This document shows, in pieces, positions 24,156 to 63,474 of a stretch of 64,000 nt of DNA. Origin of the DNA: Cladocopium goreaui. Lineage: Eukaryota > Sar > Dinophyceae > Suessiales > Symbiodiniaceae. The notes below the pieces were generated by a model, which made no database searches, was not told the DNA's origin, and worked only from the letters and a program-made list of their open reading frames with translations. Position 1 is the first letter of the stretch, and the number at the start of each line of letters is the position of its first letter. The translations under genes and the position numbers were made by a program. The DNA lies in contig CAMXCT020000462.1 in assembly GCA_947184155.2 (NCBI GenBank), positions 101,001 through 165,000 of the forward strand. Reading direction: 5' to 3'.

Positions 24156-25116
24156 GCAGATGAACACAAAGGAGGAGAGGCGCACGGAGCGGCAGAAAAT
24201 CGGAAAACTAACGGAGCAGCAGGTTTCACAAAGTACCAAAGGAAGGTACCAAGAAGCACTTAAGGATTTAGAAAGTTTCACAAAGATTCCCTTGAGCGAA
24301 CTCCTTCACAGCAGTGGAGTCGATGAGGTTTTGGCCTCCTACGTTGAGATGCTGTGGGAGGATGGAGAGCCCAAGGTGAAGGCCAATTATACCCTTGCGG
24401 GGATTCAGTTTCACAGGCCGTCGCTGAAGGGGCAACTGAGACAGTCCTGGCGCCTCCTTTCACTGTGGAACAAATTGGAGGAACCACGGCGAGCGACGCC
24501 CCTTTCCCCATCACTTTTGCTCTCCTTTGCGGGGGTACTGCTACAATGGCAGTGGTCTCGGTTGGCCTGCTTGTGCACCGTGGGCTATGCTGGACTCCTT
24601 CGCACGGGGGAGATGTTCCTTTTGCAGAGGCAGCATGTGATATTGCCTCGGACGCCCGACCAGAGCGCCGTCCTTTTTCTGGTCAACACGAAGACGACAC
24701 AACGAAACCTTCTTCAATCCGAAAAGGTACTAATTAAGGAAAAGATTGCAATTGAAAGCCTGCGCTATTTGTGTGCAGGTCTTCGTAAGGAGGACTTTTT
24801 GGTGACCACATCCGCTGCCAAGTTCCGATCAGTTTGGAAGGATGTGGTGCAACACCTGGGCTTGCAGGATTTCAACTACCTGCCCTACAGCATCCGGAGA
24901 GGAGCAGCTACTGCAGCCTATAATGAGGGTGCAACTTTTGATGAGTTGCTTGAGAGAGGACGTTGGCGTCACATTGCAACGGCGCGCCTTTACCTCGATC
25001 AAGCTTTGCAAGAGTATGCCTGCATCAACCTTCCGGTACAGAAGCTACCATTGATTCGCGCTGCCCAACGAAGATTTGTGGCAGCCGAGTTAGGGAAGCG
25101 TGGAAAGGAAGGTTGA
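24121..25116 (+). CDS. Tyrosine recombinase (ORF3)
   Basis: A 331-residue protein from an ATG that overlaps the end of ORF2 by 35 nt in the +1 frame, so termination-reinitiation is plausible. The catalytic core of the phage-integrase family is visible: GYAGLLRTGEMFLL (Arg I, about 161), NTKTTQRN (Lys), YSIRRGAATAAY (box II Arg, with Tyr where His is usual), GRWRHIATARLYLD (Trp at the His/Trp position and the nucleophile Tyr, about 291). It would integrate the circular or double-stranded cDNA without target duplication. The stop codon lies within the B1 repeat, so the coding end and the repeat overlap by 14 nt. Confidence 0.9.
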   Translation: MDPVESMPPKIKQMNTKEERRTERQKIGKLTEQQVSQSTKGRYQEALKDLESFTKIPLSELLHSSGVDEVLASYVEMLWEDGEPKVKANYTLAGIQFHRPSLKGQLRQSWRLLSLWNKLEEPRRATPLSPSLLLSFAGVLLQWQWSRLACLCTVGYAGLLRTGEMFLLQRQHVILPRTPDQSAVLFLVNTKTTQRNLLQSEKVLIKEKIAIESLRYLCAGLRKEDFLVTTSAAKFRSVWKDVVQHLGLQDFNYLPYSIRRGAATAAYNEGATFDELLERGRWRHIATARLYLDQALQEYACINLPVQKLPLIRAAQRRFVAAELGKRGKEG

Positions 25117-45715: not shown

Positions 45716-46696
45716 CCAGACGGTAGCGAATGTTGAAAGTGATCAAACCAGCCAGCTATCACCAGCTATCGCTTTTGCTGGAGCTAAGTAGCTCTAATAT
45801 CGATCCTGTGTGGACGGACTTTTCTCGTGGCCGTGGCCAAGAAAATGGACGTCACTGGGTGAACTGGGCCGACTGAATCAAGCGCAAGACATAAGATGTG
45901 CAATTAAAGATAGAAGCCAAACTAGAAAATGCTGGAGATATGTACTTGGCATGTGCTGTGGCCTTGAGTCATGCTCGCAGTGCAGCAAAGAGAAGAGAAA
46001 GATATGAAAATTATTCAATTTTATCACGTAGATACAATACATAATACACAAATTATTGATGATGAAATGCTTCCAATCCTTTTGGCAACGTTTTGGTTTC
46101 GTTGTTCAGTGCTTTTGAGGTACTTACAATTTGGACTGCCGCCCTCACGCGGATCCCTATCGCATTAGTCCAGCAAAGGACATCTCATGTGAGCAGGCGC
46201 CGAAACCACCGACCAGGACATGGCATCTCCAAGGATCTCCTGTACTTGGTTTTTTTCCAATGGAAATACAACACTATGGTAGGTCTGGCTAGTGCCAAGC
46301 ATGCAAGACAGTGTTGATGAAAATTTTTGGCTGTGGTTTGTCGATTTCAGATCTAGAGTTGTCAATTGCAGGCGAAGAATTTGTGTAGAAGAGTTTATCG
46401 AGACATATCGAACGACATACCTATCAGCCATGCCATGGATAACTGAGCACTGCTCGTTCTTTTTCACAGTTTGGAGCCACAATTCTCCGTTTGGATAACG
46501 GGGGAACGACTTGCTGACGGCACTTGGGTCACTTGGGTTTGCCCATATCAGCCCCTGGGCCGTGGGATACAACCCCTGGCCCTGGGCCGTGGGGTCGGGT
46601 CCGCAGGCCTGGCCACGTGGAACTCTTGTCCACTACAAGAGCGAGCAGCGGGAGAAGCAGGCACCCAGCACCCCCCACTTGTCACTGAGATTCATG

Positions 46697-46893
46697 GAAT
46701 GATGAGGATAAGGATGAGGATGATGATGATGATGATGGTGATGGTGATGGTGATGGTGGTGGTGATGGTGATGGTGATGATGGTGATGGTGGTGATGGTG
46801 GTGATGATGATGATCATGATGATGATGATGATGATGATGGTGATGGTGGTGGTGATGGTGATGGTGATGATGGTGATGGTGGTGATGGTGATG

Positions 46894-46925
<32 letters not shown>

Positions 46926-47320
46926 GATGATGATGGTGATGGTGGTGGTGATGGTGATGGTGATGATGGTGATGGTGGTGATGGTGGTGGTGATGGTGAT
47001 GGTGATGATGGTGATGGTGGTGATGGTGGTGATGATGATGATGGTGATGGTGGTGGTGATGGTGATGATGGTGATGATGGTGATGGTGGTGATGGTGGTG
47101 ATGATGATGATGATGGTGATGGTGGTGGTGATGGTGATGGTGATGATGGTGATGGTGGTGATGGCGGTGATGATGATGATGATGATGGTGATGGTGGTGG
47201 TGATGGTGATGGTGATGATGGTGATGGTGGTGATGGTGGTGATGATGATGATGATGGTGATGGTGATGGTGGTGGTGATGGTGATGGTGATGGTGATGAT
47301 GGTGATGGTGGTGATGGTGG

Positions 47321-47351
<31 letters not shown>

Positions 47352-47375
47352 GATGGTGATGATGAAGGTGATGCC

Positions 47376-47419
<44 letters not shown>

Positions 47420-47566
47420 CGATGATGATGATGATGGTGATGATGGTGATGGTGATGATGGTGATGGTGGTGATGGTGGTGGGGATGGTGGTGATGATGA
47501 TGATGAGGATGATGATGATGGTGATGATGATGGTGATGGTGATGATGGTGATGGTGGTGATGGTGG

Positions 47567-47604
<38 letters not shown>

Positions 47605-47629
47605 CTGGTGGTGATGATGATCGTTCTGG

Positions 47630-47670
<41 letters not shown>

Positions 47671-47970
47671 GTTGGATGATGCTGGTGATGTTGATGACGA
47701 TGATGATGATGATGATGCTGATGATGATGATGATGATGGGGATGATGATGAAGATGATGCTGAGGATGATGATGGTGATGATGATGATGATGATGACATG
47801 ATGATGAAGATGCTGGTGATGCCGACGATGATGATGATGATGATGATGCTGTTGATGATGATGATGACGATGATGATGTTGATATTGATGATGAAGAGGA
47901 TGATGATGACGATGATGATAATGATAATGATGTTGTTGCTGGTGGTGGTGGTGATGATTGTGATGATGTG
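46697..47970. repeat. GAT/GGT minisatellite, ~1.27 kb
   Basis: Made of GATGAT and GATGGT triplets with a higher-order unit near 60-66 bp (GGTGATGGTGGTGATGGTGG then GATGATGATGATGGTGATGG) repeated many times from 46730 to 47340, then more irregular GAT runs. The + strand has almost no C for hundreds of bases. Both strands stay open for about 400 codons in several frames, coding for Met/Val, His, Ser or Ile/Thr runs. That is a consequence of the triplet and not evidence of genes. Confidence 0.95.
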
Positions 47971-47999
47971 ATGATGGTGGCGGTGCCGGTTTTCTTTTG

Positions 48000-50197
48000 C
48001 ATCTATATGATACAGTATATGGTTGATATGTTTGTAATATTTTTACCATGTTGCGAACGTATGTAATTAACGGGGAAGGGCGATATATGATGTTGAAATG
48101 CGTCTTGAGACACTCCAGACATGATGTTGGATGGTAAACGCGAGTAGTGATCCTGCCCTTTCACTGGGTACGAGTTACGATCACTGAACTCGCGATGAGA
48201 CGAACTATCATTAGTGAATTGGTCCGGCAATTCGGATCACGAATCACTATCCCATTCAGACAGTCCCACCCGATGTCACCATATCAATGCCACTAGTTTG
48301 AGTGGGTGATCAGTCATGCTCAAGTCATCCAAAACAAATTCGAACCAGTAAGGAGGCAGAAGATAGTATATGTGTGTAATGTTTTTGTGGCAATATATCA
48401 AAATGATTGAATGAAACGCAAGCAAAACCAGTTTTTGCCGATGCTTGGCAGGGTGGAGTACAGCCGCCACTGCCTGCCGTGGTCAAGTCTTTTAATGAAA
48501 GTGCCAGACACCCAGAGCCAGCTGCAGCATCAGCACAAGGAATTGGAAGTTAGGCTGAAAGTCAAAGACATTCTAGGAGTCACACATAGGTCTTACAAGG
48601 AATAGAGAGCGCACTTAATGGTTGATTTGGTGAAATTTCAAGGAAACAACCAGAGTTTATTGCATTTTTTGTTTGAACAATGTTTTTCTCCAGCGCACCC
48701 ATGACACAATTTGTTTCCATCTTTGCACGATTCACCCATCCTGTGCAATGGCGTGTTTGTCACCAGTTGGACAGGATCAGACCTACAATTTGGACATCCG
48801 AGACCACGCTGACTGTGATCGCATTCGAATACGGGTGATTACGCGCCGCCCTGAATGCAAAACAAGACTACATGGAAACCATGAGGTTTGCCTATAGTAA
48901 ATGTTTGATTATCCAGCATGGTGCTGGTTGTTGCAATATGAGTTGCTGAGACTTTCTGTGGAGTTGCTCTGAGCTCACTTTGTTCAACATCACTGGAGTG
49001 ATCATCGCGCCAGGAGTTCCCACGGATATTTCACAATTTTGATTCAGGTTTCAGTACTTGCAAAGACCAAACATGCTTGGGACATTGGGGTGCATATTGG
49101 ATCTTCTTATAAAATATGTTGGTACCATTTGGATCCATTTGGTCTTAGTCTTGATTTATTTCAGTACCATGTTTGGATCCCTGCCATGTAATTACTGCAA
49201 ATTGTCTGGAAGACATACCGTGTTCGGATCATTCATGTGGTTAGTGAATTCAGTAGCTACATGGAAAACAAAGATCCCATGCTGGGAAAATTGACAGGAC
49301 ACCCCTATAACTATAATTGATGTTATAACTAACCATAACTTTCCGGTTACGATTCTCCGTGAAAACAATCCGCCATTGGATGTAGTTGTTGTTGTTTAAA
49401 TGGGCGGGGGTTCGCTTGAACATGGGCGTTTGGCTCGCTTGTGCGCGGGCTGTTGGCTCGCTTGAACGTGGGCCATGTGGCACATGACATGTTGCACATG
49501 CTCGCTTATGCTCAACCAGGGGGGGCGAGGGGGGATGATAACGTTCTTGACGACTTTGAGACAGGGTCCCCCCAGGCCCCTAAGTCTAAGTGTCAAACCC
49601 TAAAGGTGTGAGGGGTGTCCATGTCTCCAAAGTGTCCAATGTCCAAGTGATCCCCAATGTTTATGTGATCCAAAAGCCAACGTCCAAGTGACCCTGGCGC
49701 CTGTTTAAGTCCTCACCTAGACGGTAAATTCCAGCATTTGACGCTTAAATTCCCAAGTTTGATGGTTAAATCCCCAAATTTCAGGATGTTTGAAACAACA
49801 CATTTGGGAACTCAGGCGAGAAGGTGGTCCTTCCTCAGAGCCGGGCATCACCTCGGCGATGCCCAGGTCCTGTTCAGCAGGGAATCAATGGGGGATTTGA
49901 TGGACATGTTTTGGGTTTCTAAGTCATGGGGGTACCCAAAAATGGATAGTTTCCATATGTGCTAGGGTCAAAACATTGTATATGGTCTGTGGTCACCCAT
50001 CACCATCCATCCAATATTGGGAATCCTTATAATCAGCGTATAAATCCCTATTGCTGGATTGATCATTCACCAATCTGATCAATATTTATGGCTATGGAAT
50101 CCAACTTTTGACGCGCACAATGTAGAGTCAACTACACTCCATCGTCCCAAGCACAGGTGGCGGGATCGAAGAAGCCAAAGTGTGAGAATACCATACC
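48000..50197. other. Left flank of the LINE, no firm gene
   Basis: Possible exons: 48700-48893 (SPVGQDQTYNLDIRDHADCD, RIRIRVITRRPECKTRLHGN) and a short open stretch at 49797-49925. Neither has a clear splice pair or family. A GGCTCGCTTG repeat occurs near 49433-49470. Confidence 0.35.
50189..50197. repeat. Candidate LINE target-site duplication (3' side)
   Basis: TACCATACC here and at 61173-61181. It would place the LINE 3' end about 30 bp after the ORF2 stop. No poly(A) tail is visible. An 8-bp alternative (AACCAAAA, 50199 and 61204) also exists. Confidence 0.4.
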
Positions 50198-50227
50198 TAA
50201 CCAAAACGTGCAACGGGTAATTACTAA

Positions 50228-53200
50228 TTAGCCACCACCAAGTCCAGAGGCACGCACTCTCTTCATCAAAGCCGCATTCTTGGCCCATCTCTCGCGTGGT
50301 GTCAATTCAACGAGAGGTGGAAAGCGACACAAAATGTTCAGCTCCTTGATGTACAACGGTCTGTGAAGGGCTACCGAGCCCTGAAGCTTCACAATGTAGT
50401 CCCAGACAAATTTCATAGTCAATTGCTGATTTGGAAAAATAGGTCTGCAGGGAAGCCCAGCCACTGGACTCTTGAATCCCAGTCTGGAAATGGAGAAACA
50501 TTTGTAATTGTCAAACCTCGGCAAGAGGTCTCCTTGAACCACCGTTGTGATGTTTTGCCAAAGATTCCTGAAACATAGGATTTGTAAGGACACCGCTCTC
50601 TTACTGTCAGGAAGTAGTGTCGCCTTTTCATCCCCATAATCAATGTACTCTGACTGTGCACCTGCACCACTCAACTTGATAGGACAGCGAAAACCCGTTG
50701 TCAAATAGAAAGACACAAGCAGCTCAAACCACGAGACCCCCCAGTCACCTTTGGTATGCATATTGTAGTCAGGTTGAATATCAGGAGGCCACTTTACCAA
50801 ACGAGACCAGTGGACAAACGCCTTTGCGATATTCTCACCTTGCAAGCACGCATGTAATACATTGTCTTCCACCAAAAACTCAGTCAAAGGGACATAGCTA
50901 TCTTGAACAAAGTTGGCCATGGCCTCGCACGCATCAATTCCCATCAAAGCAGAATGGAAAATTCCATCACTTCTCGCATGTGCAGCTCTAGGTCGAATGA
51001 GGTGATATTGCGTCTCCGAGTGTTTTTTCTCTTCAAGGATCTGGCATCTACGCTTATTGAAAGCAGCCAGAAATTTGAAATGGGCGTTCAACAAAACGGC
51101 TTCCTTTTCAACATGAGCCACAATCTCATCCACAAGCATTCGAACCTCTGAAGGAATCGATTGGTAAGCCAAGGTCGCTGCGGCATCCGCAGCCATGTTT
51201 CCAGCAATGTACCACAAGTCCAGTAGGTCAGTCGCAGATTCAAGCTTCCTGTGACTTTTCACTTTCACAATCTTGAATTTGTCTTTGTGCCAATACTGTG
51301 CAAGTTCCCGTATAAGATCACCATTTGAAAACTTGTGCAGAATTGGGTGGAACACGTAACAGTTAATGATGTCAACAACTCGACACACATAAGACGCATC
51401 TGTGACAAATTCCACTGACGGTATCGGTTCACAAAGATTGACCTGCTTGGCAGCATGCAGTATGGCATACAATTCAGCTCGTGCAACAGTTTGGTCACCC
51501 GGCACAATCCCAACTGCTGACACATGAAACATCGGAAACTGAGGCGGTGAAAGGAACAAAAAATCAGTAGCATGTCGCATCTGGGATTCACCAATAGATA
51601 TGTCCTGTACCACCGCCCATGTTGCCAATCTGGCAACAGAATGCCGAGGATATCTAGCAGATCCATCAGTAAAAAATCTCATAGATGAAAGATCGCAATT
51701 CCTGGGTGCAATGATCTCTTGCGGCTTCACAGACATCACGAAAGCACGGAATATCGTTAGCTGGTCATGCGCACGGGGTATAGGCAGGTAAACCCACTCT
51801 TGTCGCTCATGTTGCAAGACCTCACAAGCATGTTGGGCACCATCTCTGATTTCCTGAAGCATCGGACATGAGAGAAGTCTGTGTTCCCTAGTATCAGGTT
51901 GACCACAAAGTTCACACGCATCAGACATATCTTCATCCCACTTAGCTTTCTGGGCAGCAGTCTGGAAGGCACCAACAACATTGAACTTTGTCAAGTGTTG
52001 CTCCTCTTCAGTCAGTCCATGGAAGACACGGTGAAAAGTCGCTACGTCAGGCACATGATCACCAAAACCTTTCCTATCGACCATGCCAAGAATGTGATGG
52101 GACCACATCAATCTGGCTAACTTGGTGATACGTCGGCATGAGTCATGAAGCACGTTGAAGCAAATGTAGTCAGGTCCAATGACACTTCCGTCTGCTTTCA
52201 GTTCCCATCCAAGATTCTTCAAATATTGACGCAAGGCAGTTGCCGGACCAAAGGGTCTAGAGCCAGTCCAACTCAATGCATCCAATATCGTTTCATTGGC
52301 AAGTTCAGGTTGGACACTGGCAATTCTCCGAAGAATCCTAAGACATTGCAAAATGGTGTGCAGCATCGGGTCAGTGAGGAACCTAGACAGAAAAAAGCAG
52401 GCCACAACCGGTGATGCATTATGCCATTTTCCAACAAGGCAGTTCAATGCCGCACGACGTAGCGATGTGAAATGATGCGTGCCAATGTAGGTGGTGTCAG
52501 AACTGTACAATGCCAAAGGCCACACACAAGCCTGCAACATCTTCGTCTTGGTCTGTAGTGCGGCATGGAGCCACTCAAGCCGGTGCATACGTGTTACAGC
52601 CTCATCAATTTTTTCTTTGATGAAACCCAGGGATGCACTTTTGTCATAATTGACTTTCTCACCAAGGTCTTTCACCGCATTCTTGATGACAACAGAAACA
52701 TCTTCCCCCGGATGCAAAAGGGCAAGGTGATTGCAAAATTCTCTGAAGTCCTTTTTTGTTCCCCAATGCCAGCTCTTTGCATGATCAATTGACAATCTCA
52801 TCACACATGTCAGTCTCAACACCTGTTGATAAGCCTGAAAGTGGGCACGTTGGCGAGACGACATCCAGCTCCAGTTATCAGCATAAGCAAATGGGCGAAT
52901 GTATTGTGTCTTCAACCATGCATGAAAAAGGCATGACGTCGCAAGCATGGACAGCACACTGATACTACAACCTTCAGGAACACCTGTCGTAGATGATATA
53001 CCAATGGAGACACACCCTTGAATGGTCGGGAACCTCACCATCTTGTCAAGACTGCAAATCCATGCATGAACCAGGGCAGTAGGCATCCCAAAGCGACACA
53101 TAATGCGACCCACAGCATACCTGCCAAAAGTGTTGTAAGCCTTGATGAGATCAAGTGAGTATCCACCAATAGATTTGTTCTCCATCAAAGCCTTTTCAAT

Positions 53201-55681
53201 CGCACGCTTTTGCACAAAAGCAAGTTCTTTGACCCCCCTACCAGGGAGACCACCCGATACCTCATAAGGAAAATATTCTTTCCAAATGTCTGCAGTGATC
53301 CTGAAAATGAACTTTCCAAATAACCTGTATAGTCCACTGAGGATCGTAATCGGCCTGGCATGGTGCATCGATGTCGGGACCGGCACTTTCGACAGAAGGA
53401 CAGTCTTTGCCATCATCATCCCAGGACCAAACCCAGTGGACATCACCATCTGAAAAATAAACATCAAGTCTCTAATGCAGCATATCGGAAGTGACTTCAA
53501 TTCGTCATTGGCCCATCCACAAGGTCCTACAGCTTTGGCTGATGGAAGCTTTCTGATCAACCTGACCCAAAGATCCAAATCATCCACCGGATACTGGATT
53601 TCAGGGATATGTGGAAGTTGCGCTTCATTGAGCAAGTCATCAAAAGATTCCCATGAGGCTCCACCAAATTGTTCACATCGCTCATCTCTGAGCCACATAG
53701 GAGACCAAAACCTGGAGAATTCATCAGTGATTTCGCTGGCAGTCACTGCCGTGAAAGAAACATGTAAAATTCCACAAGCCGGCAAAACGCCAGAGCGAAG
53801 GCGGAAAAAAACCTTTTTCTCTTCCTGTGAGACCAATTCAATTTCAGCATCACCAAACTTAAGCAACGCATGCGGTGGCAGATACTTCAGCTCATCCAGC
53901 AGGATTGCAGTAGCTCCAACACGGGATCTCATCAATGAAGCATTGAGTTTCCATACCACCGGGACTTCCGTTAAAGACTCCACATGCTTAGCACGAACAA
54001 GCCTGTATGAAGTCTTACAAAAGTCATCATGTTGATCAATATGGAGGTGATGTTTGGACACATCTGCACGGAATTTACTCTCAGCTCGGCAGGCATGATT
54101 GCAATCATGTTCCGTAATCTGCTCAGCCATATGTAAGTCTTCAATGGATGGCAAAACGCATGAGAGGACAGGCATGGCCTCAAAAGACAGGATCCATTTC
54201 CACCAGGAACTACCATAGCCCTTGGCATCAAGAATTTTCCTCCATTCTCTCTTTGCATCATGAAGGCTTGCAGACTCACCAATGTCATCAGTTGTGTGAA
54301 GCGGAAGGCTTTTCAGTCTACGGATCAGGGACTTAATGCGCCTGACTTGCCTGACTTTGAGTTTAGTGCTGCTGTGAAAAACCTCACATGGAGGTGAGTA
54401 GCCACCATGGCGATCCGATTTCACCGAGAGTTTTGCTTGAACTGTTCGGAATTTGTTTAACCCACATCTGCCCTTATAAGACAGCGGAAGGCATTTCTGT
54501 GGAAATTTCAGGGGGTCCAGTAAATGACATCTTTGTAAGGCTTTGTCGACAGCGGTCTCAACATGTCCAGACCAAACATTGAAGGCATGTTCAACCTGTC
54601 CAACCTCGACAGAAACCCCAGGCGGAAAAAGGTTGGAAAAATCAACAGGTTCATAAACCTCGGAAATGTTCTCTTTCGAGGGTGCAAAAGACGCCCATGA
54701 ATTAGGGATCTTCCATAATGTCTGTTTGTCACAACTTTGCATTGGCTTGAAATCAACCAGCAGCGGGGTATGGAGATCAAACGCATGCTCAGCAGGAACT
54801 GACATAGATTGAATAAGGTCAGCAACCTTCGGATGCATGAAAGCGGTGTCATTCCTAGTGGAACCACAACATGTTGGCGGTAGATCAACCTGATATTTAC
54901 TTTTGTACCAATGAAAGGCCTCAACAGCACCAATGTCTTGAAAATATTTGTAAGCAGGAAGTTTCACCAATGGTTCATTGAAGTCACCTGCAACCAGGAA
55001 AGGAAGGCCAACTTGCGCAATGACTGGGATGATACTAGCAATTAAAATGTCGTTAGGCCGAATCCCCTCCTTATGTCGATTGGCAAAGCCATACAGTGAA
55101 ATTACCAAGATTTCAAAATCAGCAATTCGGACAATGCACGTCGAAAAACGTTGTGTCTCCATCAAAGCATCCTGAACTTCAACCCTCGTAGTGCGACAAG
55201 GCAGGCTAGTAAAGATGGCAGATCCTACAGCTTCACCCCTGTAAGATGGTCGGCAATCCAGGGTAGTTTTTTTGGAAGCAACAGGTCTACTCCAAAAGGA
55301 TCTAAAACCAGCCTTACTCAGTTCACGTGAACAGTCTTTTTGAACCACGCTAGTAGCACTAGTTTCGGATACAGTAACAAGGTCAGCTTCAAGCATGAGC
55401 AGCTTATTGATTTTGCCATACACTGCGGTAGGATTCACAACTGCGAGTCTGACACCTGCGTCCTTTGGCCCAGGGTTACCAGCTTGTCCAACAATGACAC
55501 CATAGTACCAGGCAAATTGGTTCATGCGACAAATGCGGTACAGAAACATTCCAGTGCTAAAATAACAGCTGGTAAAAAGCCACGGATGCAAGGTTCCACC
55601 ACCAAGCCCGAGAAAGCTCGTAAGTGGAAATGACAACTTGGTGAGATCGGCAAAATGCACGAGCAGGTGGCAAATGCACAC
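50228..55681 (-). CDS. LINE ORF2: endonuclease, reverse transcriptase, zinc knuckle, RNase H
   Basis: The open frame counted from the GTG at 55681 gives 1817 residues; the first ATG is residue 45, and the frame is open back to the TGA of ORF1. Endonuclease (about 75-315): NPTAV, VSETSA (Glu), GDFNEP (232), TRNDTAF, FDLHTPLLVDF. Reverse transcriptase (720-1010): ARPITILSGLYRLFGKF, GYSLDLIKAYNTF (motif A Asp), TTGVPEGCSISVLSML (motif B), FAYADNWSWM (motif C, YADN in place of YADD). Zinc knuckle CELCGQPDTREHRLLSCP (1256). RNase H (1336-1505): FFTDGSA, ARAELYAIL, EFVTDASYV, KVKSH, GNMAADAAA. The last 310 residues form an extension of unknown role, ending RASGLGGG. It would nick the target DNA and copy its own RNA there. 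Confidence 0.9.
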   Translation of the reverse strand: MCICHLLVHFADLTKLSFPLTSFLGLGGGTLHPWLFTSCYFSTGMFLYRICRMNQFAWYYGVIVGQAGNPGPKDAGVRLAVVNPTAVYGKINKLLMLEADLVTVSETSATSVVQKDCSRELSKAGFRSFWSRPVASKKTTLDCRPSYRGEAVGSAIFTSLPCRTTRVEVQDALMETQRFSTCIVRIADFEILVISLYGFANRHKEGIRPNDILIASIIPVIAQVGLPFLVAGDFNEPLVKLPAYKYFQDIGAVEAFHWYKSKYQVDLPPTCCGSTRNDTAFMHPKVADLIQSMSVPAEHAFDLHTPLLVDFKPMQSCDKQTLWKIPNSWASFAPSKENISEVYEPVDFSNLFPPGVSVEVGQVEHAFNVWSGHVETAVDKALQRCHLLDPLKFPQKCLPLSYKGRCGLNKFRTVQAKLSVKSDRHGGYSPPCEVFHSSTKLKVRQVRRIKSLIRRLKSLPLHTTDDIGESASLHDAKREWRKILDAKGYGSSWWKWILSFEAMPVLSCVLPSIEDLHMAEQITEHDCNHACRAESKFRADVSKHHLHIDQHDDFCKTSYRLVRAKHVESLTEVPVVWKLNASLMRSRVGATAILLDELKYLPPHALLKFGDAEIELVSQEEKKVFFRLRSGVLPACGILHVSFTAVTASEITDEFSRFWSPMWLRDERCEQFGGASWESFDDLLNEAQLPHIPEIQYPVDDLDLWVRLIRKLPSAKAVGPCGWANDELKSLPICCIRDLMFIFQMVMSTGFGPGMMMAKTVLLSKVPVPTSMHHARPITILSGLYRLFGKFIFRITADIWKEYFPYEVSGGLPGRGVKELAFVQKRAIEKALMENKSIGGYSLDLIKAYNTFGRYAVGRIMCRFGMPTALVHAWICSLDKMVRFPTIQGCVSIGISSTTGVPEGCSISVLSMLATSCLFHAWLKTQYIRPFAYADNWSWMSSRQRAHFQAYQQVLRLTCVMRLSIDHAKSWHWGTKKDFREFCNHLALLHPGEDVSVVIKNAVKDLGEKVNYDKSASLGFIKEKIDEAVTRMHRLEWLHAALQTKTKMLQACVWPLALYSSDTTYIGTHHFTSLRRAALNCLVGKWHNASPVVACFFLSRFLTDPMLHTILQCLRILRRIASVQPELANETILDALSWTGSRPFGPATALRQYLKNLGWELKADGSVIGPDYICFNVLHDSCRRITKLARLMWSHHILGMVDRKGFGDHVPDVATFHRVFHGLTEEEQHLTKFNVVGAFQTAAQKAKWDEDMSDACELCGQPDTREHRLLSCPMLQEIRDGAQHACEVLQHERQEWVYLPIPRAHDQLTIFRAFVMSVKPQEIIAPRNCDLSSMRFFTDGSARYPRHSVARLATWAVVQDISIGESQMRHATDFLFLSPPQFPMFHVSAVGIVPGDQTVARAELYAILHAAKQVNLCEPIPSVEFVTDASYVCRVVDIINCYVFHPILHKFSNGDLIRELAQYWHKDKFKIVKVKSHRKLESATDLLDLWYIAGNMAADAAATLAYQSIPSEVRMLVDEIVAHVEKEAVLLNAHFKFLAAFNKRRCQILEEKKHSETQYHLIRPRAAHARSDGIFHSALMGIDACEAMANFVQDSYVPLTEFLVEDNVLHACLQGENIAKAFVHWSRLVKWPPDIQPDYNMHTKGDWGVSWFELLVSFYLTTGFRCPIKLSGAGAQSEYIDYGDEKATLLPDSKRAVSLQILCFRNLWQNITTVVQGDLLPRFDNYKCFSISRLGFKSPVAGLPCRPIFPNQQLTMKFVWDYIVKLQGSVALHRPLYIKELNILCRFPPLVELTPRERWAKNAALMKRVRASGLGGG

Positions 55682-55783
55682 AAAACGGATGCAAAAATGA
55701 AACTTCTCAGCATGAATTATCAGGAGGTAAATCGACAGATTGAGAACACATCTCGGACGGACATCAAGGCTCTGTCTGGATAG

Positions 55784-55786
55784 TCA
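55784..55786 (-). promoter_or_regulatory. UGA-CUA stop between LINE ORF1 and ORF2, candidate readthrough site
   Basis: ORF1 ends in TGA followed by CTA (transcript ...GGG TTA TGA CTA TCC AGA). The next 34 codons and the ORF2 frame continue with no other stop, so readthrough would make one ~3600-residue product. UGA CUA is a well-known leaky stop context in alphaviruses and in some animal genes. Whether it works in this organism is an inference. Confidence 0.5.
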
Positions 55787-58700
55787 TAACCCCGTGCCAT
55801 CATCTGGAACTCCTGTGTTTCTTGGTTTCTTCTGCGGGGGCGAAGCAACTGATGATCTAGATGAGATCATTGCTTTGATCTCTGAGAACTGGGCATTCAT
55901 GGCAGCATCATGCATGTGGATGGCACTTGCAAGACTCTCTTTGAAGACATCAGCCATGTTAAGAAACTGCTGCGAGGTGTCAGTCTTGAGGGCTCTGATC
56001 TCAGAAGCGGCTGCCTCCATATTCATGTCAATGATCTCTTTCTGATCCTCGACAGTTTTCTCAAGGTTTTGCATGTTGTCCTTCAAGGACTGAATCTCTC
56101 TCTCCATCACTTCACGGATAAGCTGCATCTGCTCATCCTGGCTTTGGAATCTGTCTTCAATTGGTGCTTCAATTTTCCTGGTTTGTGAGACAGTGGCTGC
56201 CGGTACATTCACATGGTTCTGACCAGGATTGGGTTGAGAAAGACCAGAACTTCCATGATTCTTGATCCATGCACCCCACGGGTCCTGCACAGGAAAATGC
56301 GCCTCGGTCATGCTTTGCGAAGGAGGTTCCTTAGTCGTCACCTGCAAGACCTTCTGTACATTGCCAGCCAAAATGACCGGTTTGGATTCTCTTCTCTGTT
56401 GAATCCACTTCACAAGCACAGGCTGGTTGTTCCATTGCGGAAAGACATCATCAAACACCTTCTCTGCTACGCATAACCAGGTTGTGGCATTGACAGAGCG
56501 CACAGGTTTGGCCCTCCATCCATGCGTGTTGATCCATGCTTGGACCTGATCCATTGTCGTGCCAACAGGTGTGGGCTCAACCCTGAAAAAATGATTGTGG
56601 GATACAATGTTGGGCATGTCATCATTTGGCCTGAGTTTGGCAAAGGCCGCAGGGAAATCATGACGAGTGAAGCGGATGCCCTTTGCAATGGTGTCACCTT
56701 TGAAACTGCGGACCAAACCAAAATGATTGTCACATTGGGACAGGCTCACAGCAAGGTCAACAGTCCCTGACTTGGTCCAGACGATCATGTAGTCTGGAGA
56801 CACCTGTTTGTCTTCAGTCTTTGGACACGTGTAAATCCCTCCAGTACCCGATGCACGCAGAATGCCACGCAAGTCGGATTTCTGTACACGACAATGAAAT
56901 TGGACAGTTGATGCTTGGGCAGGCGTCACTTTCTTGTTTTGCTTCTGGAAGGACCTACCCCACGGTGGCGACACAAACGCAACGTCAGTGACATCATCAC
57001 CAAGAAGCCTCAGCATGTTCTTGACCGGTGACTGAATCAGGGCATCCCAAATCTCAGGCAGAATTTCATCCTTCATGGCAGTAAAAGAGACAACCTGGGA
57101 GTCAGTCTGCGGAATGACATTGTCCACATCATCCGGCACTTTGACATGTCTGGCACCAAGCTGATGAAGGCATCCCTGTACAATGAGAGGTTCACTGTTG
57201 AGTGACACCGGGAGTTGGATTTTCAAGCATTTATCCGGTTCCTGATGGTCACAGACTCCAACCACGATCAAGACCAGTTCATCCTGAGACAAAACAATTC
57301 TTTTTTCAAGCCATGGCTTGGCCTCGGCATATTTCATGAGGACAGCACCAGAGACATTCGGAGCAATCTTTTGTAGCTGCAAGCATGAAGTATCATCCTG
57401 ATTCAGCAAGAAACCTGTTTCAATGGTCAGGGCATCAACTGGGAGATCAACTGGCAGACTGCGAGCGCTTGCCTGAAATTTCTTTTTTGCCTTTGCATTG
57501 GCAGCTTGCAACTTCTGTCCCAAAGGTGGCATGGCAATATGCAGGGCTTGTGAGAGTTGTGAGATTCCCTCCCACTTTTTGGCAACCCTCTTCTGCCCCA
57601 TCACACTCGCAATTGCATTGGGACCTGCACCACGAATCAGCGATTCGATGAACTGCACGCATTCTTTCAATTCTGCGCCCTGCGACAGAAGGAAAGACGC
57701 AAGTGAATTCTTCTGCTGAATGTTGAGTTCGTGTGCATGTGCCGGCATTTTGTCAAGCTGCGGCATGACATTGGGGCCTCCACCACGCAAGACGCCAACA
57801 AAGGTGATGTTGGCACATGCCACGTCGCCAGGTCCACAGCGTGAAAAGTGCTTCAGAGCCATGTCAGGATTAACACGACCAACGTGACTGACCAGGTTCA
57901 TTTCATGGTGATCCGCAACAATGGTGCAAGCCTGATCCCAAATATCCAGAAAGTTCTGCATCGGAAACATTCTCGGAAGGAAACCATGGAATGCGACAAC
58001 TTTCCATACCTTGACCTTTGTCATGATTGCATCAGATGCATTCACCTGCTTGGGCATACCAAGACAGGCAAGTGCGGATTTGATCAACGTCTTGAGGAAC
58101 TGTTGTGTCACCGTCGGTACCTGTGGCATTGCAACAAAGATGATGTCAAAACATAGAGGCTCCTGAAGGCTATTGAAAACGCATGCAGGGAACCATCCAC
58201 ACTTCTTCAACATCTCTTCCATTCCAGTGTCTTTCATCATGCGCAGGAATTTGATCAACAATTGGAAATTACCTTTCATGGTGAACATGCCATCAACATC
58301 CAAGGATTGGATCTCCAAGAAATCCGAAATGTCCACTCTGGGAATCGCAGTTGCATCCGGCATCATGATTTTCAGTGCAACAGACAAAGCCGCCTCAAAA
58401 TCCTGTGATTCGAAATGGGCAAAATTCTGGAAATTGTCAGCATGCATAGCTTGGTCACTCGAAAGGAGACGCAAGGGACCGCCTCCACGCAAACCAAGGA
58501 GCAGAAAGACAGTGAGTTCTTGGTTCCCGTCATCATCAGACTGGACATAAGACGACAGTCTCCAGTCAGGGCTCACACATCTGCCATTCACAACATAGCG
58601 CCAAGGTTTGTCAATCTGGAACATCTTTGAGATCCTCTTCCACAGATCGTCAAACCGATCCAAAGTCACTGTCGGGTCAATCAAGGAGTCCCATACCCAA

Positions 58701-61141
58701 GCATGCCACAGTTTGAACCTGCATCTGATTGCCGGCTCATCACCAATGGTTGTCCATGTTCTGATCTTGACAAGGAACAAGTGAATTGCAAGGCAGTAAG
58801 CAAGCTCATCTTGGGGGATCGCCAGAGCAGACGGTCTTCTCACGAGCATCCATACATTCACACATGTGTCGGTCACTGATTGAGCATCGGCCACCAGAAT
58901 CCAGCCAAGCGCTTTGATGACACCAACAAGGGCCGTTCTATGGAGAAATTCAAAAAATTCCTTCAGAACCGGATACTGACCTCTGAAGCAGAAACCCCTG
59001 TCATCAATTGTGATGTCAACAAATTCCAGGATGGACAAATCATCAGAAGCACCTTCAATATCCATCGCAAAAACTGCATCAGGACAGATCATCTGCATCG
59101 GATGCCTTTCGCCAAGGAGTCCAGTCAGGTGGTTGCAGCGGATGCCAAAAGAATGGTCAATCAGTGTCACTACATCTTGCACAGTCATGCCATGGTCACG
59201 CCTGACAACGTACGGTCCATCACTTGTCAACACAGCAATTTCAAGTGCCTTCGCTGCAATGACGGAGAATGCATTCAGTGGAATGTCCAAGGCACATGGG
59301 ACTCCAGTGAAAAGCTGAATATCATAGTCACCAACGTTCATTTGGGCCTGAAGCGTTACCCTGGCATCAAGATCACCTCCGGGTAACATGTTGATCTCAT
59401 TAGGAAGAGACCGTCCAACAAGAGCTTTCATGGCCATCAAGACATTGACATTCCTTTCAGCATGAAACATCACAGTATCAACAGGTGACCTGATTTTAAT
59501 GCACTGTTCGGCATGCATGGCAAGCGTCGGCTGACAAACTTCTTCATCAAACTCAAAAGAGAAACCACCCCACTTTCTTTCCCATTTGATGTTCCTTGCA
59601 GTCATCCTTTGGCTCATGGCTTGCATCATCAGATCTCTTGCCTCGACTCCAGACAATTCAAAGAGAAAAGCAAGAGCGTTCGTCAGCGCCAACAATGCAT
59701 GTGGCGTAGCAATTGCATTGCCAAGCATACGGATACTGGCACGGTGATCATCAGGGAACCAACATGGCATCAGTGCACTCTGGGCAATGATTATCTCTGG
59801 CACACTCATGAATCTCAACCCTGTAGGCAAGGCCAGCAAAGTGCCAAAGAGACCTGCATGTTGCAACGTGGCATCAGGCAGCAAATGACCAAAGGAGTAG
59901 TTGCTCATGATACATCCAAACACTCCATGAGGATGTTTCACACGATATTGCTCCACATCTTTTCTGGATCGTTTCATGTTGCGTCCTCTCTGGTCAAGCG
60001 ATTTCGGCAGGAGCTGTGGGTCCAGGTAGATCCGAAGCAAATCTTCATTCAGTCTGCACTGAGAAATCCATGGCTCACCAATGTCAAGGATGTTCATGAA
60101 GGTTTCAAGAGTCTGTCTTTGCGTGGAAGGCCAAGTCACAGGCAAATGCGGAAACAAATCGGCGGAATCCAGTGTTGCAACAATGATCAACCGATCTCGA
60201 TGCTGAGGCGTGATTTCAGCCAAGTTGAGGTTCCTGGCAAATCGGATTGAATATCCTGTCCACAAGATGAAGTCAAGAATGATCTTCCAGTGTGCATGAT
60301 CTTTCATACCCGACACCATCTCCATCAGGACAATGCGTGGCCTGAGGATGTTGGCCACTCCCCAAGCATGAAGCGTCAACCTACCATCAGCTCTGCCTAG
60401 ACCCTGTTGTGAAGCAGCGAAACTCCATGGTGGGCAAGGTGGCGACATGACCAACAGGTCATAGGCATCATCTGAAAACAAATGTTTCCATGTGTGGAGG
60501 GTAACATCACCTTCAACAAAAAGTGACTCAGGCAGTGGGTCAATTCCCCATGTGAAATCGTCAGGCCCTACGACATGCTGGAACCCATGTGACCTCATGA
60601 AAGTCAGTGCACAAACGTGTTCAGAGTCCAGAGCTAACCGATGGGAGAATGGATATCCCAATTCACTGAGCTTTCTCATCGACTGGGACCAGCCCGAGAA
60701 TCCACCACTAAAGAGTTCGCAACTGACCACATTTGGACCTTGCATTGGAATCCTGGCATCAGGACAAGCCATGACTCCAGACCTGGATGAGGTCGTGTCA
60801 ATGATTCCATCACGGTTGACACCATCCAGCACCACAAAACGTTCAGCCTTGCTAATCACATGCTGCCATTGGTCTGAGGTGATTTTCAGTCGCACCTGAG
60901 AGACAAGGTCATGAGCACATCTTTTGGGTGTCAAAGGAACATTCCTGAAGAAATCCTGACATGTTTCCCCATTTCGTCTGATTTCACCTCGGAGCATCAC
61001 ATAGCTATGGGACATGACTTCCACAACCCTTTGGCCAACTTCACATGTGATCAAATCCAAGCATGGGCAAATTGCAGTCCTCGAACTATATTTGATGGCC
61101 AAACAGTGGGCATGATCATCAGCGGTTCTGAAACATTCCAT
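55784..61141 (-). CDS. LINE ORF1: cytosine methyltransferase, ubiquitin-like domains, coiled coil
   Basis: 1785 residues from the first ATG after an in-frame stop. Residues 136-490 are a C5 cytosine methyltransferase: LFSGGFSGW (motif I, 143), LALDSEHVCAL (II), VEGDVT (III), MSPPCPPWS (IV, catalytic Cys, Pro in place of Gln after it), LMEMVSG (VI, EMV for ENV), TPQHRDRLIIVAT (VIII) and RMLGNAIATPHALLAL (X). Residues 805-888 and 1041-1122 look like ubiquitin folds: FKLWHAW, helix DPTVTLDRFDDLWKRISKMF, RYVVNGR, LSSYV, ELTVFLLLGLRGGGP, and VKVWKVV, HVGRVNPDMAL, NITFVGVLRGGGP. A weaker one may lie at 632-695 without the glycine tail. Residues 1510-1590 may be RNA-binding, and 1665-1760 form a coiled coil. 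The rest is unrecognised. It is likely to bind the element RNA and to methylate DNA. Confidence 0.8.
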   Translation of the reverse strand: MECFRTADDHAHCLAIKYSSRTAICPCLDLITCEVGQRVVEVMSHSYVMLRGEIRRNGETCQDFFRNVPLTPKRCAHDLVSQVRLKITSDQWQHVISKAERFVVLDGVNRDGIIDTTSSRSGVMACPDARIPMQGPNVVSCELFSGGFSGWSQSMRKLSELGYPFSHRLALDSEHVCALTFMRSHGFQHVVGPDDFTWGIDPLPESLFVEGDVTLHTWKHLFSDDAYDLLVMSPPCPPWSFAASQQGLGRADGRLTLHAWGVANILRPRIVLMEMVSGMKDHAHWKIILDFILWTGYSIRFARNLNLAEITPQHRDRLIIVATLDSADLFPHLPVTWPSTQRQTLETFMNILDIGEPWISQCRLNEDLLRIYLDPQLLPKSLDQRGRNMKRSRKDVEQYRVKHPHGVFGCIMSNYSFGHLLPDATLQHAGLFGTLLALPTGLRFMSVPEIIIAQSALMPCWFPDDHRASIRMLGNAIATPHALLALTNALAFLFELSGVEARDLMMQAMSQRMTARNIKWERKWGGFSFEFDEEVCQPTLAMHAEQCIKIRSPVDTVMFHAERNVNVLMAMKALVGRSLPNEINMLPGGDLDARVTLQAQMNVGDYDIQLFTGVPCALDIPLNAFSVIAAKALEIAVLTSDGPYVVRRDHGMTVQDVVTLIDHSFGIRCNHLTGLLGERHPMQMICPDAVFAMDIEGASDDLSILEFVDITIDDRGFCFRGQYPVLKEFFEFLHRTALVGVIKALGWILVADAQSVTDTCVNVWMLVRRPSALAIPQDELAYCLAIHLFLVKIRTWTTIGDEPAIRCRFKLWHAWVWDSLIDPTVTLDRFDDLWKRISKMFQIDKPWRYVVNGRCVSPDWRLSSYVQSDDDGNQELTVFLLLGLRGGGPLRLLSSDQAMHADNFQNFAHFESQDFEAALSVALKIMMPDATAIPRVDISDFLEIQSLDVDGMFTMKGNFQLLIKFLRMMKDTGMEEMLKKCGWFPACVFNSLQEPLCFDIIFVAMPQVPTVTQQFLKTLIKSALACLGMPKQVNASDAIMTKVKVWKVVAFHGFLPRMFPMQNFLDIWDQACTIVADHHEMNLVSHVGRVNPDMALKHFSRCGPGDVACANITFVGVLRGGGPNVMPQLDKMPAHAHELNIQQKNSLASFLLSQGAELKECVQFIESLIRGAGPNAIASVMGQKRVAKKWEGISQLSQALHIAMPPLGQKLQAANAKAKKKFQASARSLPVDLPVDALTIETGFLLNQDDTSCLQLQKIAPNVSGAVLMKYAEAKPWLEKRIVLSQDELVLIVVGVCDHQEPDKCLKIQLPVSLNSEPLIVQGCLHQLGARHVKVPDDVDNVIPQTDSQVVSFTAMKDEILPEIWDALIQSPVKNMLRLLGDDVTDVAFVSPPWGRSFQKQNKKVTPAQASTVQFHCRVQKSDLRGILRASGTGGIYTCPKTEDKQVSPDYMIVWTKSGTVDLAVSLSQCDNHFGLVRSFKGDTIAKGIRFTRHDFPAAFAKLRPNDDMPNIVSHNHFFRVEPTPVGTTMDQVQAWINTHGWRAKPVRSVNATTWLCVAEKVFDDVFPQWNNQPVLVKWIQQRRESKPVILAGNVQKVLQVTTKEPPSQSMTEAHFPVQDPWGAWIKNHGSSGLSQPNPGQNHVNVPAATVSQTRKIEAPIEDRFQSQDEQMQLIREVMEREIQSLKDNMQNLEKTVEDQKEIIDMNMEAAASEIRALKTDTSQQFLNMADVFKESLASAIHMHDAAMNAQFSEIKAMISSRSSVASPPQKKPRNTGVPDDGTGL

Positions 61142-61172
61142 GGTCCAATTGGCGCGCAGGATTTGCCTATCC

Positions 61173-61181
61173 TACCATACC
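61173..61181. repeat. Candidate LINE target-site duplication (5' side)
   Basis: TACCATACC, the same as at 50189-50197. It would leave a 31-bp 5' leader before the ORF1 ATG, short for a LINE, so either the insertion is 5'-truncated just upstream of the ORF or the repeat is a coincidence. Confidence 0.4.
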
Positions 61182-61199
61182 AGCTTTACCCCGGGGAGG

Positions 61200-63474
61200 T
61201 TTGAACCAAAAAGCTATCCAACTTTTGACCATGGCACATATGGGTGTGCCTGGAAATGGGGTATACCCCCGAAATCGCCATCAAGACACAAAGATAATGA
61301 GGATTCATCAATGGATTACTGTAGGGGTATCCTATTTTCAGACAAAGCCATAGATCAAATGGGTCACATAGGGCTATGAAACTTGATGGATCAAATGGGG
61401 ATGTAGTTTTATTTCATGGGCATGTTTGATTGGATCTAAAATCTTATAAAACCAACAATCATAGGATATGATTGGGATACCAATGGGATGTAATCGTCAA
61501 GAACCATGGTAAATGGGAAACTATATTTTGATGGGAAAAAGTAATGACAAACCAATAGAGGGAATGGGGTATTTGATTTCTCACACATTTGCTCAGAACA
61601 GTCATTGCGAATTCTGATGTGGAATGCATCTGACGTGCAAAAACACCAACGATAAGTTGACATGAAGAATGTATATTTGTAAAAATATATAGTAATCACA
61701 GTAGACATTGACCGTATAAAACAACAGCGATAAAATATAGGTCCCCCCCAGCTGCGACTTATATGCGCCCAGGGGCGGGACTCTATGTATATAACTAACG
61801 AACGAACGAACTAACTAACTAACTAAATAAATAAATAAAGTTGCAGGTACAGGAAACCGGCCACGTTTCCCATCCCACTCATGTCCACAGCTTCATTGCG
61901 TGTGGTAGGACATGGGTGCCACACGCCCCTGCAGCATAATGAAGTTTTTCATCTATACAGATGGTACACACACACACAAACGGAGGTTTTGGGATGCAGA
62001 TGTCCTTCATTTCAAGGATATTATTATTATTATTTATTGTGATTTTATTATGATATATCAACTGAATTCAAGCAACCAAACAACAGAAAGGGGTACTGGT
62101 AACACATTGCAAAAAATGGTGATATATATATATATATGTTATATTATATAACAATTTGCCCAGGTCAACTGATCAAGCAACACTAAGGGGATAACTGTGT
62201 GTAAATGTCACTATGCGTTCCTCCAAACTCTGAAATGTGGTACAGGAAGCAATAGCACAAAGTCACAACTTTCAGACTGTATATGTTCCTGACAGAATGA
62301 CAAAATCAAAGGGTCGCAGAAGATATTTCTTAGAGATGGAAGTTTCGAAACCAAAAAAAAAGTGTCGAGGCCTTTTGACATGAAGCTTCGGATATTCGGT
62401 TGCAAGGTACCATGATGTTTCCTGCTAGACTACCAATTGAAAACAATATCCATTTGAGATTTAACTTGTCATTTACTTCCTCGTGAACCGCAGGCCCAAC
62501 TGTTTTGTCGTCAGCACTTCACGTTAGAACATCCATTTATTTTTGCTGGCCGTGGCTCTTCAGCATAGTTGGTGCATGCCACAACCAGAAACGTGAGCGT
62601 GTGCGAGCGCTACTGTCTTGAGCCGGGTTCCCTGAATGTGAGATGTAGCGACTGGTTTCCAGGGTGCCAACAAAGCAACTCATGGATGACAAAGTACATG
62701 TAAGTTTGATCCACCTACCAATGGGAGCAGAATCCGATTTCGTCTGGCACAATCGATTCTTCCAAACATATTCAAAAACATATCCACAAACACGTTTTAT
62801 TCAGATGTTGATATTTCTTTGTTTGTGCCAAGAACATTGCTGACAACATTGCTGGACCATGCATCTGAGGCATCGTCCAATGGCTGTTGTGCGCTTCAGC
62901 GATCGTCCTCCAAGTGTTCATGAAGCTCCCCTGCGGGAGCCCAGTGAGGCACGTGTGCATCTAAAAATGCTGGATTTTGCCTCCAATGTATGACCAGTCT
63001 GCAGAAGGGGAAATGGTGATTCACCAATGTGTGTTTTCCTGGAAAAGTAAGACAAACCTAATAGACAGATGAATATGAAGTAAATGGATGATCATGATGG
63101 TCACGACTATGATGATTTCATGACGATCACGATCTGCCATGAAAATTCAGAGGTATTTTTTTGGCCAAGTGTTTAAGCCCCGTTTCAAATTCCATTGCCA
63201 CCTTGATACAGGATTCCAAGTGCCAGAGCTTGACAGATTAGCGATGTTTCAAGTGGCCAGGGCAGCCTCACCTACCAACTAGCAACATTTGTGCATGGCA
63301 ATAGGCCAACGCTTTCTTCATTGTTACAATAAGTTACAATGTTGATGTTGTTACAATACTCTTGCAATTTTGAGTCATCCATTTTTGTTTCTGTCGAAAT
63401 TTTAAGCCATCCCATGCCCAGTTGATGTTTTCCACATTTGTTAAACATGTAGTCCGACTGTTCCACGGGTGACC
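61200..63474. other. Right flank of the LINE, no firm gene
   Basis: Small simple repeats occur at 61797-61838 (ACGA/CTAA/AATA runs). A TA tract lies at 62121-62150. An open segment around 62810-62940 is present on both strands without a clear splice pair. Nothing else is supported. Confidence 0.35.

Follow-up and report, generated by a model that had tools for sequence, protein, structure and literature searches.

A LINE ORF1 with a cytosine methyltransferase and two diverged copies of a 188-residue repeat ending in LRGGGP

Organization of the locus

The window, that is the whole stretch of 64,000 nucleotides analysed, carries on its minus strand a LINE with two long open reading frames (ORFs). 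Its main parts are as follows.

50113–61215, minus strand: whole LINE copy of 11,103 bp between both target-site duplications (TSDs; an exact 14-bp repeat flanks the two ORFs)
61216–61229, minus strand: TSD at the 5' end of the LINE, GTCAAAAGTTGGAT on the coding strand (exact repeat)
50099–50112, minus strand: TSD at the 3' end of the LINE, the same 14 bases GTCAAAAGTTGGAT (exact repeat), with no A run (poly-A) before it
55784–61141, minus strand: ORF1, 1785 aa, uninterrupted (ORF list)
59708–60712, minus strand: C5-cytosine methyltransferase domain, about ORF1 residues 144–478 (PF00145, PHROG, motif scan)
56027–56152, minus strand: strongest coiled-coil-like stretch, ORF1 residues 1664–1705 (home-made heptad scan)
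50228–55681, minus strand: ORF2, uninterrupted, 1817 aa when counted from the GTG start listed, ending ...SGLGGG (ORF list, Pfam, motif scan)

The 14 bases matched at exactly two places in the whole window, both flanking the LINE, 115 bases past ORF2 and 74 bases ahead of ORF1. By our own arithmetic, about 0.03 chance matches of 14 bases are expected between the compared flanks, and far fewer so near to both ORFs. It was read as the TSD of a full-length and probably young copy. No second copy of ORF1 or ORF2 was found elsewhere in the window.

Pfam placed PF00145 at residues 209–353 of ORF1 (E 1.4e-15), and PHROG methyltransferases matched the same ORF with a best value of 2.6e-21. Furthermore, a motif scan with the C5-methyltransferase consensus revealed motifs I, IV (PC), VI (EMV for ENV), VIII (QHRDR), and X (LGN). 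Around the coiled-coil-like stretch, weak family matches cover residues 1648–1766. ORF2 contains a reverse transcriptase (RT) at residues 773–970 (RVT_1, E 1.9e-8) and an RNase H at residues 1362–1504 (PF00075, E 6.1e-6), both named by Pfam, together with a zf-RVT-like match below Pfam's cut-off. A GDFN box of an APE-like endonuclease was also seen, but Pfam gave no Exo_endo_phos match. With PF00145 in ORF1 and RVT_1 in ORF2, the element is a LINE with a C5-methyltransferase in ORF1, in line with the methyltransferase that the first-pass annotation had placed there. No protease was named by Pfam in either ORF or in five pieces searched apart.

Two details of ORF2 may be recorded here. Its RT active-site box reads YADN and not YADD (residues 933–936, 52874–52885, minus strand), although the ORF is open. 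Directly ahead of the endonuclease stands GNPGP (residues 68–72, 55466–55480, minus strand), which may be left over from a 2A-type NPGP site; of the 2A consensus, the DxE that belongs upstream is missing.

The element fits a kind of LINE that is already known, SymbioLINE-Dnmt, which was described by de Mendoza et al. 2018 (PMC5890265) in a text whose accessible part reports hundreds of DNMTs inside retrotransposons; DNMT-bearing LINE copies are numerous in Symbiodinium. As far as that part goes, both have a C5-methyltransferase in ORF1, a downstream ORF2 that encodes RT and RNase H, TSDs on either side, and no poly-A. In the accessible SymbioLINE-Dnmt text (PMC5890265), an LRGG tail, an internal repeat, a ubiquitin-like region, and an in-frame UGA junction all go undescribed, and the words "ubiquitin", "protease", and "frameshift" are absent from the main text in the form available. 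Scans of viral contigs for ORF1, ORF2, the region with the LRGGG tails, and two DNA patterns, and of genome contigs for the RT pattern, gave no relative, which says little because these collections consist of viruses and prokaryotes. When 48 viral and prokaryotic loci fetched by pattern were compared by tblastn, ORF2 had no match at E 0.1; ORF1 had one methyltransferase match (E 0.002) and, within its coiled-coil stretch, one further match that was weak (E 0.054).

Two further features of the window lie outside the LINE. A DIRS-like element at 18724–25116 (plus strand) contains a methyltransferase in the long ORF (PF00145, E 5.8e-8), and another of its ORFs is tyrosine recombinase-like at E 8.6e-4, a value that misses Pfam's cut-off. 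The element resembles SymbioDIRS-Dnmt3, the other type in the accessible text of PMC5890265; together with the LINE it suggests that the window comes from a member of the Symbiodiniaceae. An ATG-type repeat array at 46699–47976, with 142 copies of a 9-base unit and 82% matches, accounts for the long open frames that overlap on the two strands at 46471–48049.

An internal repeat in ORF1

Two regions of ORF1 had been singled out as ubiquitin-like in the first-pass annotation. They were examined together with the repeat in which they lie.

58475–59038, minus strand: repeat unit 1, ORF1 residues 702–889, ends LRGGGP (internal repeat alignment)
57773–58336, minus strand: repeat unit 2, ORF1 residues 936–1123, ends LRGGGP (internal repeat alignment)
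58478–58729, minus strand: candidate ubiquitin-like region 1, ORF1 residues 805–888; tail LRGGG at 58478–58492
57776–58021, minus strand: candidate ubiquitin-like region 2, ORF1 residues 1041–1122; tail LRGGG at 57776–57790

Coordinates and residues of both regions proved correct, and a check of the sequence confirmed that each ends in LRGGG followed by P. Local alignment of residues 690–890 with 930–1125 gave a score of 97, as compared to 29.4 +/- 4.5 for shuffled sequences, and none of 1000 shuffles reached 97. The two ubiquitin-like regions alone scored 45, with 2 of 1000 shuffles as good. In a self-comparison of ORF1 by tiles of 200 residues (406 pairs, mean 31, sd 8.8), each of the 12 best pairs listed overlapped both units. 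The units may start earlier, at residues 682 and 923, and the similarity between them stops exactly at LRGGGP.

Hence, the candidate ubiquitin-like regions are the ends of two homologous, far-diverged copies of a 188-aa repeat. The two regions are more alike than the first-pass annotation stated; its unit of about 82 residues was too short, and it overlooked that the repeat similarity ends at this motif. A 188-aa internal repeat in a methyltransferase-bearing LINE ORF1 is new here. ORF1p is best explained as a long protein of several parts: an N-terminal part, the methyltransferase, two diverged 188-aa modules, and, beyond a middle part, a coiled coil at the C-terminus.

Conservation of the LRGGGP tails

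Among six GG sites listed for ORF1, only two are LRGG, both at module ends. Shuffling of ORF1 produced two LRGG in 2 of 2000 trials and two LRGGGP in none of 2000. The last 82 gapless columns of the aligned repeats contain 16 identities, six of which form the unbroken terminal LRGGGP; shuffling of the identity string gave a run of six in 34 of 20000 cases. Codons for L, R, and P of the tail are the same in both copies, whereas all three Gly codons differ (GGA GGC GGT versus GGT GGA GGC). Since the Gly codons differ while the residues stay, we read the tail as kept up at the protein level. The duplication is old enough to have left about 20% identity, and the tail is what stayed. LRGGGP is therefore the best-kept part of the module between both copies within this one ORF1, as is expected if the tail does something.

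Both frames taken together contain four GGG, all reading L.?GGG. Two of them are the ORF1 tails, and the other two are the following.

55595–55606, minus strand: LGGG located past the ORF1 stop and ahead of the endonuclease; its translation would require that of the codons preceding the first ATG
50231–50242, minus strand: LGGG at the very C-terminus of ORF2 (motif scan)

L.?GGG, a pattern noticed after the fact, occurred on average 0.10 times in shuffled frames and reached four in none of 3000, as compared to 7 of 3000 for GGG alone. LxGG was found five times in the two frames together, a number reached in 17 of 3000 shuffles; the fifth is LPGG at ORF1 residues 586–589, outside the modules, so LxGG alone is no mark of a module end.

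Similarity to ubiquitin

Ubiquitin, NEDD8, and ISG15 are conjugatable proteins that end in LRGG at the end of a strand. Both regions have in common with ubiquitin and such ubiquitin-like proteins (UBLs) an LRGG that ends a strand, preceded by G-[KR], D, and L..[YF]. Of the ubiquitin pattern proposed in the first-pass annotation, both copies allow the C-terminal half to be read, in the order strand, G-R, PD, L..[YF], strand, LRGG; the N-terminal hairpin was established by no test, and no library or profile search named ubiquitin. A layout [VILF]..G[RK]..D..L..[YF]...LRGG, with 8–26 residues from L..[YF] to LRGG, is common to ubiquitin and both copies, and neither ORF contains its part ahead of the tail at any other place. 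Bodies that were shuffled and given LRGG matched it in 35 of 20000 cases for copy 1 and in 20 of 20000 for copy 2; the pattern was written after the three sequences had been seen, so these counts give a scale and not a test.

Pairwise comparison separated the two copies. Copy 1 with its tail scored 49 against ubiquitin, a value reached by none of 1000 full shuffles of ubiquitin and by 3 of 1000 in which the tail was kept. Copy 2 scored 22, and 446 of 1000 shuffles, or 556 of 1000 with the tail kept, were as good. As a background for ranking, 214 tiles of ORF1 and ORF2 were scored against ubiquitin (mean 24.5, sd 5.2). Copy 1 with its tail equalled the best of these tiles, those that tied being overlapping tiles, and ranked 16 of 214 without its tail; copy 2 ranked 127 of 214 with and 108 of 214 without. 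Against NEDD8 the ranks among 214 were 4 and 42 for copy 1 with and without tail, and 110 and 208 for copy 2. Copy 2 owes its likeness to ubiquitin to the tail and to being related to copy 1.

With a profile built from six UBLs, copy 1 reached 0.7 bits; 12 of 500 tail-kept shuffles did as well, and 314 of the 500 obtained any score. For copy 2 the value was -2.0 bits, which 340 of 500 shuffles equalled or exceeded, 372 of them obtaining a score. Coiled-coil tiles stood above both copies with up to 4.1 bits. Profile–profile comparison with UBLs yielded a probability of 3.6% in local mode (E 0.012 for one comparison) and 0.2% in global mode. Pfam at E up to 1 or 10 and NCBIfam at E up to 10 named no UBL family, in searches whose HMMER filters drop most weak matches, and PDB sequence searches with the regions named no ubiquitin relative. 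No sequence test places the regions in the ubiquitin family, and they are therefore not filed as members; their likeness to ubiquitin is suggestive.

A third UBL had been suspected by eye at ORF1 residues 630–725. It was rejected at rank 66 of 214 against ubiquitin. TAL-repeat matches of the same residues in the PDB (whole chain E 4.8e-6 and 8.7e-6) contained no passing stretch and were taken as noise of many weak repeats.

Predicted folds

AlphaFold models were built on 2-row alignments and were poor in both cases, with pLDDT values of 45.3 for region 1 and 43.2 for region 2. The order of elements in them is E-H-E-E-E and H-E-E-E, and the last strand runs up to the tail, so that in both copies the [LR]xGG motif (LRGGG) stands at the end of a last strand. 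Both models place a helix before three strands; the first hairpin of the beta-grasp fold, for which the first-pass annotation had suggested a check with AlphaFold, is not modelled. At these pLDDT values the models decide nothing about the fold: the order of elements fits the C-terminal portion of a beta-grasp, and other alpha/beta folds just as well. Secondary structure from simple propensities fits a mixed fold and proves nothing. Taking the tail, the layout, and the modelled order together, we lean towards regarding the last ~80 residues of each module as a very diverged ubiquitin-like (beta-grasp) domain.

The junction of ORF1 and ORF2

ORF2 lies in the same frame as ORF1, with no stop between them.

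55784–55786, minus strand: ORF1 stop codon in the context UUA UGA CUA
55550–55783, minus strand: open stretch of 78 codons that follows the ORF1 stop and reaches up to the first ATG in frame with ORF2 (55547–55549)

Between the ORF1 stop and the listed GTG of ORF2 there are 34 sense codons. The stretch of 78 codons remained open in 103 of 3000 dinucleotide shuffles, and the other two frames hold 2 and 3 stops. In reporters in human cells, UGA followed by CUA favours read-through and UUA before the stop is permissive, according to the accessible text of PMC9841425; the full motif given there is CUAG, and one reporter that lost the G fell to less than half of its read-through. Here the fourth base after the UGA is U (CUAU) and not that G. 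An RNA structure that would favour read-through was looked for and not found: the 101 bases folded after the stop formed no stable structure, with a z of +1.1 and 175 of 200 shuffles folding as well. Judged by its sequence context, the ORF1 UGA may be read through, which we regard as possible rather than probable. Read-through would yield a polyprotein of 3637 residues, in which cut sites would make more sense.

A comparable arrangement exists in Tca2 (PMC2194720, accessible part), where two ORFs, in our own reading sharing a frame, are split by a UGA that needs to be bypassed. There the gag UGA pol junction was by itself not enough for read-through in yeast, which calls for caution with the ORF1 stop described here.

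Discussion

The modules of ORF1 are open to several explanations. One realistic possibility, though not one that we would call probable, is that each module is an ordinary alpha/beta domain with a role in oligomerization or in binding of RNA or protein, LRGGGP being an uncut conserved hinge or surface loop and the ubiquitin look a resemblance of the tail. The likeness of the body to ubiquitin is indeed not significant once the tail is removed, no library named a UBL, and Pfam named no protease. A plain linker, however, should drift faster than the domain that it joins, yet six identities in a row occur in the tail and nowhere else; furthermore, the order G-R, PD, L..[YF] ahead of LRGG is common to ubiquitin.

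An RRM-like or other RNA-binding nature of the modules, with RGG-type glycines adding contact to RNA, appears unlikely. LINE ORF1 proteins commonly contain RRMs together with a coiled coil, a coiled-coil-like stretch is present in ORF1, and the strand-helix-strand-strand-strand and helix-strand-strand-strand order of the poor models would suit such a domain. But Pfam named neither an RRM nor a zinc knuckle in ORF1, the CCHC pattern used had no match there, and one RGGG per module is no RGG box.

Less credible is that the modules are UBLs which stay uncut and bind partners in the host ubiquitin system or proteasome, or which are conjugated as modifiers after cutting. Uncut UBLs are common in multidomain proteins; they have usually lost the GG, however, and here it is kept in both copies. 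That the tails arose by chance, as two LRGG did in 2 of 2000 shuffles, or by recent copying of DNA is most improbable, given that no shuffle held two LRGGGP and that the tails close far-diverged homologous units with differing Gly codons.

As a tentative joint reading, we propose that the modules are diverged UBL modules whose LRGGGP is read and cut by a protease of the ubiquitin or UBL type, which would most probably come from the host. LRGGGP would then have been kept because a cysteine protease of this type reads it. Given a beta-grasp fold, cutting after the GG would be somewhat more probable than not. Since Pfam named no protease, it would need a host enzyme, which we infer to be the more probable source, or one that is not recognized. 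The bond cut would be LRGG|GP, and cuts at both tails would release a methyltransferase piece of 887 residues (1–887), a middle piece of 234 residues (888–1121), and a coiled-coil piece of 664 residues (1122–1785). If the UGA were read through, cuts would also part the ORF1 pieces from the ORF2 enzymes.

A wider version of this proposal is speculative and, in our view, improbable: an ORF1-UGA-ORF2 polyprotein punctuated by built-in UBL domains and L(x)GGG sites and matured by host enzymes of the deubiquitinase type. If this were true, the retrotransposon would supply the substrate and not the protease, and its methyltransferase, nucleocapsid-like, and RT parts would be freed by the host ubiquitin machinery. 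Most LINE proteins are generally regarded as functional without cleavage and without a protease of their own. Cutting of ORF1p by host enzymes at ubiquitin-type tails would hence be a different route of maturation for a retrotransposon protein; it would explain release of the methyltransferase from the 1785-residue ORF1p and would tie the success of the element to the ubiquitin system of its host. Among the literature matches listed, from a collection that takes in few subscription papers, no title and no opening of an abstract ties UBL domains or LRGG sites to the ORF1 of a LINE.

In comparison with ubiquitin itself, the regions are embedded twice in a long ORF, LRGG is followed by a third Gly and a Pro, five more residues lie between L..[YF] and GG by our own count, and the body has no significant likeness. 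The proposed mode of processing has a counterpart in cytopathogenic pestiviruses, in which, according to the accessible part of PMC8310069, a ubiquitin insert is cut by cellular hydrolases and thereby serves as a processing signal that frees NS3; NEDD8 as an insert is named there solely in the title of a cited reference. What the two would share is a UBL in a polyprotein as the cut site of a cellular enzyme. In the pestiviruses, as far as that text goes (PMC8310069), the inserts are nearly intact host ubiquitin, whereas the candidate domains described here are diverged and duplicated and their cutting is proposed. The sites LXGG|X of the coronavirus protease PLpro, as given in the available text of PMC10849127, would accommodate LRGG|GP, which places a Pro at P2'; unlike that system, the LINE has no papain-like protease named by Pfam. 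Finally, Ginger, Mutator, and Helitron transposons carry OTU or Ulp1 proteases, as reported in the accessible part of PMC2836005, and are thus also mobile elements with parts of the ubiquitin or SUMO system. These transposons carry the protease, whereas the LINE described here would carry the substrate.
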